This document shows, in pieces, positions 18,994 through 34,837 of a stretch of 47,516 nt of DNA. Position numbers and translations under genes: made by a program. Position 1 is the stretch's first letter; each line of letters starts with the position of its first letter. The notes beneath the pieces were generated by a model. The model saw only the letters and a program-made list of their open reading frames with translations. It did not search any database and had not been told where the DNA came from. Source of the DNA: a virus; the IMG/VR virus record IMGVR_UViG_3300030107_005583, positions 1 through 47,516 of that record. One strand, written 5' to 3'.

Positions 18994-19038
18994 CAAAATC
19001 CTCGAATCAAACATAAAAATCCCCCCCCCTTAATTATG

Positions 19039-26637: not shown

Positions 26638-27111
26638 TTATTCTTCAAATACTCTTGGTTCTACTGTTGTCTTTCTTTGGTCAGCGCCTGCGTTTATTAA
26701 CGCCTGCAACTTATGGTTCAATGCATTACAAGTAGCTTTAAACAACTGCTTCTGTTTCTTGGCCTCAAGCAACTCTAATTTAAGCTCTTGATACTCTGAA
26801 TTTGTAATGATTGTGTTCTTCAATTTTGTTTCTGTAGTTCTAACACCAGCAGCCTCAAACTCAACCCGTGTCTGATGGTCCAATACCGCATAAACCCTTT
26901 CTAACTGGTATTCAAGTTGTTTTTCCTCACACTCCGCTACTGATGTCAAATACCCGTAAGCCGCAACCAATTCGGACTGTTTAAAAAACTCTTCCTGCAG
27001 ATCTGAATAATCAATCTTTACATCATTGACTGGGTCTAATCTCAGATACAAATCTGTTAAATTAAAATTTCTACCGTCTATCGACATACTATGTTTATCT
27101 ACTTCACTCAT
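26638..27111 (-). CDS. putative UvsY-like recombination mediator
   Basis: 157 aa. Mostly helical: a DLQEEFFKQSELVAAYGYL segment near 38, charged helices, and a C-terminal EYQELKLELLEAKKQKQLFK then ALNHKLQALI. This helix arrangement and its position between polymerase and ssb/recA resemble UvsY-type mediators, which load the recombinase onto SSB-coated DNA. Sequence identity to T4 UvsY is not obvious by eye, so this is an inference. Confidence 0.5.
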   Translation of the reverse strand: MSEVDKHSMSIDGRNFNLTDLYLRLDPVNDVKIDYSDLQEEFFKQSELVAAYGYLTSVAECEEKQLEYQLERVYAVLDHQTRVEFEAAGVRTTETKLKNTIITNSEYQELKLELLEAKKQKQLFKATCNALNHKLQALINAGADQRKTTVEPRVFEE

Positions 27112-30095: not shown

Positions 30096-30124
30096 ACCGT
30101 AGTCTAAAGGGATTCTCAAGTCAA
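30096..30124 (-). promoter_or_regulatory. possible promoter before the RHH regulator
   Basis: TTGACT (30119-30124), 17 nt, TACGGT (30096-30101) on the minus strand. The -35 overlaps the primase stop region. The -10 is weak, but the CCTTTAG spacer core is shared with the promoter at 37628-37656. Confidence 0.45.
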
Positions 30125-31116
30125 CTTAAATGTTCCAATTTGAACATTTGATAATTCACACTATCTACAGGTGTAGACTCTTGTATCAGTTTTCCGTTTT
30201 CTTCCATAGTTCTTTCTGCGGCATCCCTTCCATCTGAATGCATCACTACGAAGCATTCTGCCTGGATTCTTTTATCGTATTTCTCAACTTGTGGATACGC
30301 ATCTAAATCCCAGTAGAAAATAACACGCTTAAAACCATTTAACAGATTTATTTGGCGAGTAGATAGGGACTTTCCAAAAGACGCGACTGTAGGCGCAACC
30401 TGCGCCATGTGAATAGCATCAAACACCCCCTCAACAAGAACAACTGTGTCCCCCTCTATAGAGTCATAGTTGTATAAAAAGTCAGACTGCTTGTTTCCTT
30501 TCGGGTTTAGGTATTTCCTGTCACTAAACCCATATAAGTCTCGTGCCACAAAAGTCACTATTTCATCTCTGTAGTAACACGGAACAATTATTCTCCCAGA
30601 AAACTCTCCATCGTAACAAAACCTAATGCCAAACCTTTTAGCTACCTCTTTCCCGATACCTCTTGATGAAAGATACTTTCTTGCTTCTTTCACATGCCTA
30701 TCTAAGCCCGGTATACCTGGCAGGCTTGTGACGGGGACAAAGTTTTGTCCAAGACTCATAACCTTATAATCAAAGTCCTTCTCCTGCTCCTCTTCAAACA
30801 ACTTGTCCACCAAGTCTTCAACATCCACATCCATAGACGTAAACGAAGTGCCTTCATCTGCCATGGCAAGCACTTCACGTATGCTTATACCCTCAACATC
30901 AGAGATAAACCTTACAGGAGATTTAGGATCATATTTGCACTTTTGGCAGTACGGAAGACCAGCAGACACTAGGACGTACAAATGTCCCTTTGTGTCATCA
31001 CAAAAAGGACAGTCAACCCGTACCCTATCTTCATCAGAGGTTTCGTAAACGCTTGAAAACTTATTTGAAACATAAGAAGCAAAGTCAAAATTTAAAAGAA
31101 AGTCTTTCCGATTCAA
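30121..31116 (-). CDS. DNA primase (zinc + TOPRIM)
   Basis: 331 aa. CPFCDDTKGH and YCQKC at residues 36-60 make a CxxC-x17-CxxC zinc site. TOPRIM acidic motifs are VVLVEGVFDAIH at 225-236 (Glu229) and FYWDLDAYPQ near 270. Synthesises RNA primers for lagging-strand replication. It is smaller than DnaG and lacks the helicase-interaction domain, like gp61-type primases. Start is TTG 31116, three nt after the preceding stop, with GAGG upstream; no early ATG exists. Confidence 0.85.
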   Translation of the reverse strand: MNRKDFLLNFDFASYVSNKFSSVYETSDEDRVRVDCPFCDDTKGHLYVLVSAGLPYCQKCKYDPKSPVRFISDVEGISIREVLAMADEGTSFTSMDVDVEDLVDKLFEEEQEKDFDYKVMSLGQNFVPVTSLPGIPGLDRHVKEARKYLSSRGIGKEVAKRFGIRFCYDGEFSGRIIVPCYYRDEIVTFVARDLYGFSDRKYLNPKGNKQSDFLYNYDSIEGDTVVLVEGVFDAIHMAQVAPTVASFGKSLSTRQINLLNGFKRVIFYWDLDAYPQVEKYDKRIQAECFVVMHSDGRDAAERTMEENGKLIQESTPVDSVNYQMFKLEHLS

Positions 31117-31609: not shown

Positions 31610-32920
31610 CTATAAAGCATCATAAAATTTACCGTGAGCAAAATTAGTACTGATGGTCACCTCCGTCCCCGACGTACCATCACGGTTTTTAGCTAGAAAA
31701 AGACGCATCTCTTGCTGCTCCTTCTCCTTCTTATTTTGACAAAGTCCAATAATCACATCTGCAATCATGGCTTTACCAAAGTCCTCAGATATATCCGCTA
31801 CGGTCACCTGAGATTTACTAAGGGAGGCTCTGTTAGCCTGAGAAGCTGTCCATATAGGCAACTGCTCGTCTACAGCCCACCCCCTAAGCATCTTGTATAT
31901 GTAAGACTGATTGTGCCGCTCTTCAGAAAAGTTCTGCTCTGACTTCAGCAAGTCAGCGTAATCCACCACAATAAAGTCTGGAAAAAACCCGGTTCTTTTA
32001 AGATTATCTGTATAAGTTCTAAGATTTCCTACCGTCACAGATTTGGTAGGATATTCTTTAATGTGAACATTCCCGACTGCCTGGTCATTCATTAACTCGA
32101 CGAGGCGTTTCTTCACAGCATCAGGTCGTTCTTGAGTCTCCACACTAGTCATACTAGCAACGCTCATATCGAATCGATCTAAGTACCTGTCCTCACTCAT
32201 CTCTAAAGTGAATATGATACCCTTTAACCCCTTCATCATATTGAACTCAGAGATCTGCTTAAGGAACATCGATTTACCACGGTTTGTAGGAGCCAAAACA
32301 ACGCCAAGCTCCTTCTCACCAAGACCCCCACCGCGAAGAAAGCTGTCCAGTTCAAGGATGCCTGTAGGGACAATCCTACGTTTCACAGAACGCCTGCTAA
32401 TACGCTCATCGTACTTCTCTACATCAGGGTAAGTCTGTCCAGTTTTAAACTGGATGTCAGACCGCTGAGATGCCTCTATGAATATCTTGGGTATGTCTAT
32501 GTACTCGCCCTTCTGATACGAGGCTTGAGCTTTAATAAACGCCTCTTTCATCAGATTCTTCTTAACGAATATAACTACCCTAGATTCTATGTATCCAGCG
32601 TCCGTTAGGTCGTCCTCTCGCATGAAGTTGTATAACTCCTGAAAGAACTTTACACGGGACTTATCAATCTTCCCGTCATTGATTCCTATCTTGATTCGAT
32701 CAATCAACGAACGCTTCGTAATTACCGAACGAGCGTTTTTAAAGTGTGTACGAAGGGCATTGAACATCCAGCCCATATCACTATCAGAAAAATACTTTGG
32801 TGATAGGTTGTCGCTTGCATATGCCAAGAACCTTAAGTCCTTGTACATTAGCGACAGTATCCCTATTTGGAAGTCCTTATCGAACTCCTCTTTTAAATTC
32901 CCCAGAATTTCAGATTGCAT
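31610..32920 (-). CDS. dnaB: DnaB-type replicative helicase
   Basis: 436 aa. Walker A APTNRGKSM at 210-218, FTLEMSEDRYLDRFD near 240 (DnaB H2 region), IVVDYADLLKSEQ near 320 (Walker B), and a conserved TASQANRASL near 360 with a downstream R-finger region. N-terminal domain is helical. It is a RecA-fold hexameric helicase unwinding at the fork. Starts six nt after the 363-aa gene that may be its loader. Confidence 0.93.
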   Translation of the reverse strand: MQSEILGNLKEEFDKDFQIGILSLMYKDLRFLAYASDNLSPKYFSDSDMGWMFNALRTHFKNARSVITKRSLIDRIKIGINDGKIDKSRVKFFQELYNFMREDDLTDAGYIESRVVIFVKKNLMKEAFIKAQASYQKGEYIDIPKIFIEASQRSDIQFKTGQTYPDVEKYDERISRRSVKRRIVPTGILELDSFLRGGGLGEKELGVVLAPTNRGKSMFLKQISEFNMMKGLKGIIFTLEMSEDRYLDRFDMSVASMTSVETQERPDAVKKRLVELMNDQAVGNVHIKEYPTKSVTVGNLRTYTDNLKRTGFFPDFIVVDYADLLKSEQNFSEERHNQSYIYKMLRGWAVDEQLPIWTASQANRASLSKSQVTVADISEDFGKAMIADVIIGLCQNKKEKEQQEMRLFLAKNRDGTSGTEVTISTNFAHGKFYDAL

Positions 32921-32925
32921 GTGTT

Positions 32926-34017
32926 TTATTCTCTATATGATTTAATTTTCCTATAAAATCCTGTGCGCTCAACCCCAGCGCCCCAAGCCTCTTCCTCTAC
33001 AAGCTCCTGATACAACGGCAAACTTTTGAGGTATTGCCACGGTATGTATCCCGTTTCAGGGTGCCCTAATACCCAAAGCACCTGTTTACGAGAAAGTCTC
33101 GTACTCTGCATTTGATGCTGAATCATCTCTTCGTAAATACTAACCATTTGAGCACTAGGTGTTTCGATCTTAACTTCCGTACTCCTAGATCGATACGCCT
33201 GCTCAACGTTATCTACTCCAACATCAAAGTAGTTTAACTGGTCCTTAAATCGTTCGCAGTAACTCTTGTACCTACCAACTGAGTTCCATGTCGAGTTTAT
33301 AGACATCGAATACGAAAGGCTTGGAGCAGTGCCTTTCCACTTGTCGTGATAGAAGAACTGAGCCTCTATGAACCTTCGAATGTTAAAATCGTAATGCTTA
33401 CATATCGCAGTGCCCATCACGTATTTACCAAATGTTTTTCGCTTCTTAGACAAGATACCATTCGTCATCAATTTGTAGAATGGCTTATCATTGTATTCTT
33501 GGATTTTCTTTTCGTAGGCCCTTACAAATTCAATGACTTCTTTACCCGTCACAGGTACCTTTGTAGTATGAATGGTAGCTACAAATTTGTCCGTCTCTTG
33601 AACAACATCTTTAGCCTTGTGGCTACCTCTCCCCTTACCCTTCTTAAAAGCGGTAAAATCCTCATCTTTTCGGGCTACGACCCGTTTCTGAGAGATAAAC
33701 TCCTCGCTGTCCGAATTACGATGTTTTTCACCACTTTCCTCTCTTGAACTCGGACGAACGGCTGTGCATTTCAAATCTTTCATAGAAAATCTGGCTCTTT
33801 TTTTTGAATTGATTGTGTTTGACGACAATACGGTTGAACGTACATCAAGGAAAAAAGAATTGGAAGCATCTTCAAATAATTCTGGACATTCTTCTTGTAA
33901 GGTGCCGAAAAGCTGAGAGTCCGTAGGACGACCAGGGTCTCGGCTCCTATCCAACATAGCCTGATAAGAAGCAAACACGTAGTGTTTGTTGATTTGAAGG
34001 ATTTGTTGGATCATATC
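32926..34017 (-). CDS. unknown protein before the DnaB helicase, possible loader, 363 aa
   Basis: I start it at ATG 34017 (MIQQILQINKHYVFASYQAM), after a terminator hairpin; an in-frame ATG at 34176 with GGGGA would add 53 residues and run through that hairpin. The protein is basic, with a Lys/Arg-rich middle (FKKGKGRGSHKAKD) and Trp-rich WVLGHPETGYIPWQ near the end. Placement immediately upstream of dnaB suggests a helicase loader, but no loader motif is visible. Confidence 0.65.
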   Translation of the reverse strand, partial: DMIQQILQINKHYVFASYQAMLDRSRDPGRPTDSQLFGTLQEECPELFEDASNSFFLDVRSTVLSSNTINSKKRARFSMKDLKCTAVRPSSREESGEKHRNSDSEEFISQKRVVARKDEDFTAFKKGKGRGSHKAKDVVQETDKFVATIHTTKVPVTGKEVIEFVRAYEKKIQEYNDKPFYKLMTNGILSKKRKTFGKYVMGTAICKHYDFNIRRFIEAQFFYHDKWKGTAPSLSYSMSINSTWNSVGRYKSYCERFKDQLNYFDVGVDNVEQAYRSRSTEVKIETPSAQMVSIYEEMIQHQMQSTRLSRKQVLWVLGHPETGYIPWQYLKSLPLYQELVEEEAWGAGVERTGFYRKIKSYRE

Positions 34018-34043
34018 TATACCTAAAAACAAAAAAGAAAAAC

Positions 34044-34066
34044 CCCTATATACTACGTATATAGGG
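34044..34066 (-). terminator. intrinsic terminator just before the 363-aa gene
   Basis: The minus strand has CCCTATATAC-GTA-GTATATAGGG (10-bp stem, 3-nt loop) followed by a run of Ts (GTTTTTCTTTTTT). It lies 27 nt before ATG 34017, inside the leader transcribed from 34306-34334. This places it as an attenuator rather than a gene-end signal. Confidence 0.75.
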
Positions 34067-34126
34067 TCAAAAAGAAAAAACAAAGAACGTGCGGGGATTG
34101 GGTCAAGACCATCAAAAAAATAACTC

Positions 34127-34156
34127 TTGACAATACCAGGAAGGTCGCCTGATAAT
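34127..34156 (+). promoter_or_regulatory. plus-strand promoter for small RNA
   Basis: TTGACA (34127-34132), 18 nt, GATAAT (34151-34156, with TG before it as in an extended -10). It points right, opposite to the minus-strand protein genes of the window. A start at about 34163 gives a ~98-nt RNA ending at the terminator at 34218-34260. Confidence 0.65.
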
Positions 34157-34162
34157 CTTAAA

Positions 34163-34260
34163 CGTATTGTTGGCATTGTTCCCCAGACCTTGTCGATAAA
34201 CAGATGATACCTTTAGTAGCCCTGACGTCTAACCCCCTTAGGTGTCAGGGCTTCTTTTTT
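34163..34260 (+). ncRNA. candidate antisense small RNA
   Basis: Between a plus-strand promoter (34127-34156) and a strong terminator (34218-34260). The 3' hairpin AGCCCTGAC/GTCAGGGCT extends to 15 bp with an apical CCCCC loop. Two G-U pairs (27-43, 28-42 within 342xx) form only in the plus-strand RNA; on the minus strand they become A-C mismatches. The RNA is complementary to the minus-strand leader including the start at 34176 and its GGGGA ribosome site, so it could control the operon. The 5' end is estimated. Confidence 0.6.
34218..34260 (+). terminator. plus-strand intrinsic terminator
   Basis: Stem AGCCCTGACGTCTAA pairs with TTAGGTGTCAGGGCT through 15 bp (two G-U) closing CCCCC, followed by TCTTTTTT. 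On the minus strand no U-tract follows (ACTAAAGG). Confidence 0.8.
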
Positions 34261-34305
34261 ACCTAACAAGCTGATTTCCAAAAGAAAATCTTAACTTGTC
34301 TTGCG

Positions 34306-34334
34306 ATACTACTACAGAAAATTCTTCTCGTCAA
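34306..34334 (-). promoter_or_regulatory. promoter of the helicase/primase operon
   Basis: TTGACG (34329-34334), 17 nt, TAGTAT (34306-34311) on the minus strand, in the gap after the J-domain gene. Predicted leader of about 280 nt to ATG 34017. Confidence 0.6.
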
Positions 34335-34360
34335 TTATTTAATTTCAAAGACTACAAAAT

Positions 34361-34837
34361 TTATTGATTCCAACTCTTTTGTATACTCTCGTAAGCGTCT
34401 TTTATCTTTACAAATTCTTCACTGTTTGGCGACTCACCATCAGGGTGGTAATGCTTCGCAAGTGCCTTATACACTGCCTTTACAAGGAATTTTGGCGCTG
34501 ATTCTTTTAAGAATAAGACTTCATAATTGCTGTTGTAATTAGACGGTTTTTTAATGTTGTTTTTACTTTTTTTATAATTTCCTTGTAAAACATCCTGTAT
34601 TATTTTTTGATATTTTATAGGTAAACTACTTGTGTCAATATGATTAAAGGTGTGTCTTGAAAAAGCAATAATATCTGGCAGAACTTCTGGTAACACCACC
34701 CAACAAGATTTTTTTGGAAACCAAGTTCTTGTTGATTGCTTTATAGAATACGTTATAAAACTTTTTAGTTCTTCGTCTTTAAACGAAAGCTCTATGGTAT
34801 CGTTATCGTCATTATACTCTAATTTTAGTTTACTCAA
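34361..34837 (-). CDS. J-domain-like protein, 158 aa
   Basis: C-terminal PKFLVKAVYKALAKHYHPDG with HPD at 131-133 and NSEEFVKIKDAYESI is the helix II-HPD-helix III core of a J domain, which stimulates Hsp70/DnaK. The N-terminal half (IELSFKDEELKSFITYSIKQ, then WFPKKSCWVVLPEV) resembles the beta module seen before SNF2/UvsW-type helicases. TTG 34837 overlaps the upstream stop and has GGGTG upstream; no ATG is near. It may recruit host DnaK to replication proteins. Confidence 0.78.
   Translation of the reverse strand: MSKLKLEYNDDNDTIELSFKDEELKSFITYSIKQSTRTWFPKKSCWVVLPEVLPDIIAFSRHTFNHIDTSSLPIKYQKIIQDVLQGNYKKSKNNIKKPSNYNSNYEVLFLKESAPKFLVKAVYKALAKHYHPDGESPNSEEFVKIKDAYESIQKSWNQ

Follow-up and report, generated by a model that had tools for sequence, protein, structure and literature searches.

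Does a phage whose genes run almost entirely on one strand encode a short RNA on the other strand, opposite the leader of its replication operon, and what would such an RNA do to the genes behind it? In plasmids, replication genes controlled by antisense RNA are a classic theme, and to our knowledge few phage cases have been described beyond lambda OOP. The window analyzed here, meaning the whole stretch of 47,516 nucleotides, is a viral record of 47.5 kb that contains genes of tailed phages along with replication genes, and all positions below refer to it. An initial annotation of the locus had proposed that a small RNA is made from the plus strand, antisense to this leader. Using the window and two related genomes, we found this proposal well supported by conservation at near-saturated divergence, by compensatory changes and by wobble pairs that can form only in the plus-strand RNA.

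Results

Gene organization and promoters

The minus strand carries all three tRNAs and, with few exceptions, the large ORFs, which confirms the gene layout given in the initial annotation. When near-consensus promoters were counted in the window, nine out of ten were also found on the minus strand, and the tenth, at 34127, was the sole one on the plus strand. Since most of the nine directly precede small genes, the phage probably uses sigma-70-type promoters. One family of minus-strand promoters with 16-nt spacing stands before small genes at 403, 1778, 6033, 6481, 7060 and 9836, and several members share an extended common sequence (GATAT TTGACA ... ACCAG ... TATAAT, followed by AACAAG and a ribosome site). 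This family is likely to represent the early promoters of the phage.

The replication operon, also on the minus strand, encodes the first-ORF protein, a DnaB helicase, a SprT-like protein and a primase. The matches to phrog_19 and phrog_47 bear out the earlier placement of the leader ahead of a helicase/primase operon. For the first gene, no homologue was found in the phage or plasmid collections or in the PDB, and the structure prediction of its product (mean pLDDT 43) was too poor for use. Immediately upstream of the operon, the protein encoded at 34364-34837 (minus strand) has a DnaJ domain at its C-terminus (Pfam PF00226, E 3e-8); lambda-type replication too relies on host DnaJ. Within this DnaJ-like gene, the 60 nt at 34559-34618 show 90% three-way identity, the highest of any such window in the 9.2-kb alignment of the three genomes.

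Predicted antisense RNA

On the plus strand, TTGACA-18-GATAAT is followed by a 15-bp hairpin and TCTTTTTT, exactly as the initial annotation had described from the sequence. The hairpin (34218-34252) is located 61 nt past the promoter and contains 15 pairs, 7 of them G-C, and TCTTTTTT occupies 34253-34260. By itself, the 11/12 promoter match is at chance level, with 0.6 expected per strand in shuffled sequences. When a promoter of at least 9/12 was required together with a strong terminator within 200 nt, the 34127 locus was the only such pair in the window, and none appeared in 60 dinucleotide-preserving shuffles. The predicted RNA would run from about 34163 to 34258-34260, which makes it about 96-98 nt long here. 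In the relatives it would reach ~124 nt, since 30 nt are inserted close to its 5' end, and this insertion is itself predicted to fold into a hairpin. In each of the three genomes, the RNA folds better than all 200 shuffles (z -4.6 to -4.7). Both of its hairpins carry conserved C-rich loops, and conserved complementary G-rich stretches are present on the sense strand. The positions of these and the other elements are collected in Table 1.

Two other assignments were considered and dropped. A role of the hairpin as terminator for the upstream minus-strand gene is ruled out by the absence of a U-tract on the minus side. For a known RNA family, Rfam at the gathering threshold gave tRNAs only and no family for the antisense RNA, and a relaxed Rfam search gave only low-scoring matches to unrelated families, which are probably due to chance.

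Table 1 Features of the antisense locus, the sense leader and the replication operon, with runs identical in the three genomes.
Feature	Position	Strand	Details
Antisense promoter	34127-34156	+	-35 TTGACA 34127-34132, 18-nt spacer, -10 GATAAT 34151-34156
A-rich stretch just upstream of antisense promoter	34113-34126	+	could serve as UP element
Predicted noncoding antisense RNA	34163-34260	+	start placed from promoter, end from terminator
5' hairpin of antisense RNA	34167-34199	+	stem TTGTTGGCA/TGTCGATAA, inner GTT/GAC, loop CCCCA
Intrinsic terminator of antisense RNA	34218-34260	+	15-bp stem, loop CCCCC, U-tract TCTTTTTT
Candidate sense promoter	34306-34334	-	TTGACG-17-TAGTAT; sequence match only
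Hairpin at predicted sense-leader 5' end	34265-34300	-	covaries; wobbles weakly favour minus strand
Conserved GACAAGGTCTGGGGAACAATG	34174-34194	-	G-rich stretch and ATG; covered by antisense RNA
Sense-leader intrinsic terminator	34033-34066	-	CCCTATATACGTAGTATATAGGG then GTTTTTCTTTT; within 46-nt block identical in three genomes
Imperfect inverted repeat, conserved	33949-34011	-	AUCCAACA/UGUUGGAU outside, CAAACAC-UAC-GUGUUUG inside
First ORF of operon	32926-34176	-	416 codons; coding signature only from about codon 131 (ATG 33783)
DnaB-like replicative helicase	31610-32920	-	phrog_19, E 2.9e-69
DNA primase	30121-31116	-	phrog_47, E 4.3e-46
Identical run, 46 nt	over leader terminator		three genomes; longest found
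Identical runs, 23 and 18 nt	over antisense promoter		three genomes
Identical run, 22 nt	over G-rich stretch and ATG 34176		three genomes
Identical run, 22 nt	just upstream of candidate sense promoter		three genomes
Remaining identical runs	end of upstream gene and 33949-34011 inverted repeat		three genomes

Conservation in related genomes

The case for the RNA depends on two relatives that keep both the promoter and the terminator hairpin. These are the IMG/VR contigs 3300029319_000169 and 3300025141_000238, which encode the same operon with DnaB 85% identical and the first ORF about 60% identical. The divergence nearby is high, as ~60% of the third codon positions differ (153/256, in the same ORF). 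In both relatives, the promoter is found in the same place with its hexamers, its spacing and nearly all spacer bases unaltered, and the block 34157-34116 is identical in the three genomes except for one base in one relative. The terminator hairpin is also retained in both; there the stem was read from the sequence, and a simple terminator scan listed neither of the two. The proposal was to fall if relatives lacked both promoter and stem, and these two therefore leave it standing. The candidate has its own promoter and terminator opposite the target transcript, as expected of a cis-antisense RNA, and it keeps them in both relatives.

The stems also point to the plus strand. The initial annotation had noticed two terminator stem positions that pair as G-U in the plus-strand RNA only, and the recount agrees: all 15 positions form standard pairs on the plus strand, compared with 13/15 on the minus strand. 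Across the three genomes, the plus strand forms 15, 14 and 13 of these pairs, and the minus strand 13, 13 and 12. In every one of the three genomes, the outer pairs of the 5' hairpin number 9/9 on the plus and 6/9 on the minus strand. Two bases that vary between the lineages stay paired through G-U on the plus strand only. Between the lineages, the terminator stem changes from CCCTGAC/GTCAGGG to CCCCGGC/GCCGGGG, and over the whole stem three pairs are altered on both sides with compensation, with the loop conserved. Covariation at the observed level was reached by 17 of 500 shuffles. The covariation check in relatives that had been called for thus yields three compensated pairs and plus-only wobbles; with three sequences, two of them close, we regard strand preference and covariation as suggestive of a plus-strand RNA. 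We consider it very probable that the plus-strand RNA exists.

The same region stands out at the nucleotide level, as 9 of the 13 longest identical runs of the 9.2-kb three-way alignment fall in 33948-34404. No further genome with this leader was found in the viral and genome collections scanned; a third contig, L006, whose DnaB is 95% identical, begins inside DnaB. In the records searched, a covariance model of the antisense RNA (R1) had no matches beyond the three known loci. Similar DNA was not found among the phages of the collection searched, and a search of the three genomes for second copies of the leader blocks gave nothing beyond chance 12-mers.

The sense leader

The ORF that starts at 34176 is open in all three genomes with indels in frame, and 33962-33662 aligns without gaps, a point in favor of translation. 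In codons 161-416, changes by codon position number 58/44/153, as against an even 12/12/11 in codons 1-54, with 1 synonymous versus 18 nonsynonymous codons. Therefore the 5' part looks like a noncoding leader, or like coding DNA that is constrained at the nucleotide level. Protein constraint as the cause of the conservation was rejected by these counts for the first ~54 codons and is doubtful to ~130. Since the codon-position signal is missing before about codon 131, selection in the leader region appears to act on nucleotides. For the stretch 33783-34176 (minus strand), there are two readings: a leader that is long and noncoding, or an N-terminus that is translated and subject to unusual selection. 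Accordingly, the initial annotation of a start site at 34176 under the RNA holds in part: the RNA does cover a conserved ATG, but the first ~130 codons behind it have no protein-coding signature, and this ATG may not be the main translation start.

The candidate sense promoter keeps TTGACG in the relatives, and its -10 is not clearly kept. Further downstream, the stem of the leader terminator occupies 34066-34044, with a U-tract on the sense strand only. The palindromic elements at 33949-34011 and 34044-34066 are conserved; instead of forming RNA hairpins, they possibly bind protein or belong to an origin.

Discussion

As promoter and hairpins have been kept by selection, the RNA probably holds the replication genes in check. 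We consider it fairly probable that a cis-antisense RNA represses the replication leader, similar to lambda OOP or plasmid countertranscripts. First, a host-type (sigma-70) promoter at 34127 would make a short, terminated, noncoding plus-strand RNA, which would be wholly complementary to the 5' leader of the operon, including the G-rich stretch and ATG 34176. Second, the C-rich loops of the two hairpins would make first contact by pairing with their G-rich counterpart loops in the leader as it emerges; in plasmid countertranscript systems, such loop-loop kissing usually opens the interaction (PMC4485353). The resulting duplex, possibly with interference by convergent transcription, would lower the output of the operon (first-ORF protein, DnaB helicase and primase), and more genome copies would give more antisense RNA and hence negative feedback. 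Promoter, terminator, strand preference of the stems, conservation and position are seen directly in the sequences and their comparison; from them we infer transcription, pairing, the direction of the effect and the feedback. Given where the RNA lies, the earlier idea of an operon switch is plausible. Repression of the leader by pairing, with some interference between the convergent promoters, is the most economical reading, and several points weigh against it. Only three genomes are available and two are close, the 11/12 promoter alone is at chance level, sense-strand functions could account for part of the conservation, and in lambda OOP RNA leaves O-P mRNA stability unchanged (PMC3985674). 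Blocking of 34176 may also matter little, since it is perhaps not the main start.

The alternatives partly share this ground, and their probabilities overlap with that of antisense repression because attenuation and interference are in part sub-cases of it. Plasmid-type attenuation, in which a nascent leader bound by the antisense RNA would make polymerase stop at 34066-34044 before the operon genes, is attractive because an invariant terminator sits downstream. The order of elements is that of pIP501 (antisense target, terminator, gene; PMC4981023), and the terminator follows the target by ~100 nt, in the 46-nt invariant block and with its U-tract on the sense strand only. A dosage-sensing antisense RNA would then decide whether polymerase passes a fixed leader terminator, and helicase/primase output would drop as phage genomes accumulate. 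However, equilibrium folding in the three genomes gave a terminator probability of about 0.95-0.99 whether the antisense region was blocked or free, and no strong conserved antiterminator partner for the 5' arm of the terminator was found. As blocking makes no difference to the terminator, the simplest switch, an antiterminator of the pIP501 style, is not supported thermodynamically, and we regard attenuation as unlikely.

It is unlikely, too, that plus-strand transcription itself is the active part, tempering convergent sense transcription or activating an origin in the leader, with the RNA as by-product or primer. The promoter is positioned like lambda pO, whose activity promotes replication and dampens the convergent transcription from pR (PMC3985674), and conserved palindromes at 34044-34066 and 33949-34011 lie here with the replication genes next. 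However, iterons or tandem repeats were looked for at the site and none was found, nor was a skew switch, which is a weak test because the genes are all on one strand. Selection on hairpins, loops and wobbles suggests that the RNA itself matters, and OOP has been shown to be no primer (PMC12197685).

That the locus holds no antisense gene, and that the conserved blocks reflect a structured sense leader or a protein N-terminus with a fortuitous plus-strand promoter match, we consider quite improbable. The sense leader itself does contain conserved hairpins and a terminator, no stop interrupts the frame that begins at 34176, the alignment is gap-free as described, and a promoter match of this quality is expected about 0.6 times per strand. 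However, the stem wobbles suit the plus strand better, the U-tract follows the hairpin on that strand, -35, spacing and -10 are retained in 3/3 genomes, and codons 1-54 change evenly with nonsynonymous changes prevailing. Very unlikely is a trans-acting sRNA whose two conserved C-rich loops would target the G-rich ribosome-binding sites of other mRNAs, from the phage or its host. Several window genes are G-rich before their start, and at 19014, 27111 and 11095 the predicted duplexes reach -16 to -18 kcal/mol. However, no predicted pairing is stronger than that with the cis target of the RNA, and the site at 27111 was discarded, since it falls mostly within the end of a coding sequence and the relatives do not clearly retain it. 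The G-runs at the ribosome-site positions of the minus-strand gene starts 19014 and 11095 are unusually long (AAGGGGGGGGG and AGGGGGG), and they are possible loop partners.

Comparison with known systems

The proposed antisense repression of the leader has its closest phage counterpart in lambda OOP (promoter pO, terminator tO), which is likewise a short terminated RNA opposite the replication-operon transcript, just before the replication genes (PMC3985674, PMC12197685). The target of OOP is cII, upstream of gene O, whereas the candidate here is antisense to the replication-gene leader. Genes of the lambda cII, O or P type were not identified; the upstream gene is DnaJ-like and the replication genes are DnaB and primase, and Rfam gives no relation in sequence or structure. 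In lambda, the OOP promoter tempers convergent transcription and the RNA is without effect on O-P mRNA stability (PMC3985674), which calls for caution in taking the RNA, rather than its transcription, as the active part.

Among plasmids, pIP501 RNAIII is also a countertranscript over a replication-gene leader with an intrinsic terminator downstream in the leader (PMC4981023). However, the operon here belongs to a phage, and no CopR-like gene was identified adjacent to it. Compared with attenuation of the pIP501/pT181 type, the leader terminator downstream of the target is present, but the alternative-pairing switch is not supported by equilibrium folding. pMV158 RNAII resembles the candidate in being a short, terminated RNA antisense to the region in which translation of a replication gene begins; it inhibits translation of repB (PMC4485353). 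RNAII has a single hairpin and acts via its 5' tail, whereas the candidate has two hairpins with C-rich loops and covers ATG 34176, which may not be the main start, since the coding signature behind it begins only near codon 131.

Noncoding antisense transcripts are also produced from the genomes of the virulent phages PAK_P3 and LUZ100 (PMC4933390, PMC10134795). RNA-seq revealed them, mainly in regions of structural genes, whereas the candidate lies at a replication leader and is known from sequence only. By kind, it would belong to the well-known class of cis-antisense RNAs; by place, it would differ from OOP in its target and from the antisense RNAs of virulent phages, found chiefly in structural regions. 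If true, a conserved antisense RNA on a helicase/primase leader would point to RNA-based metering of the replication machinery in phages as well.
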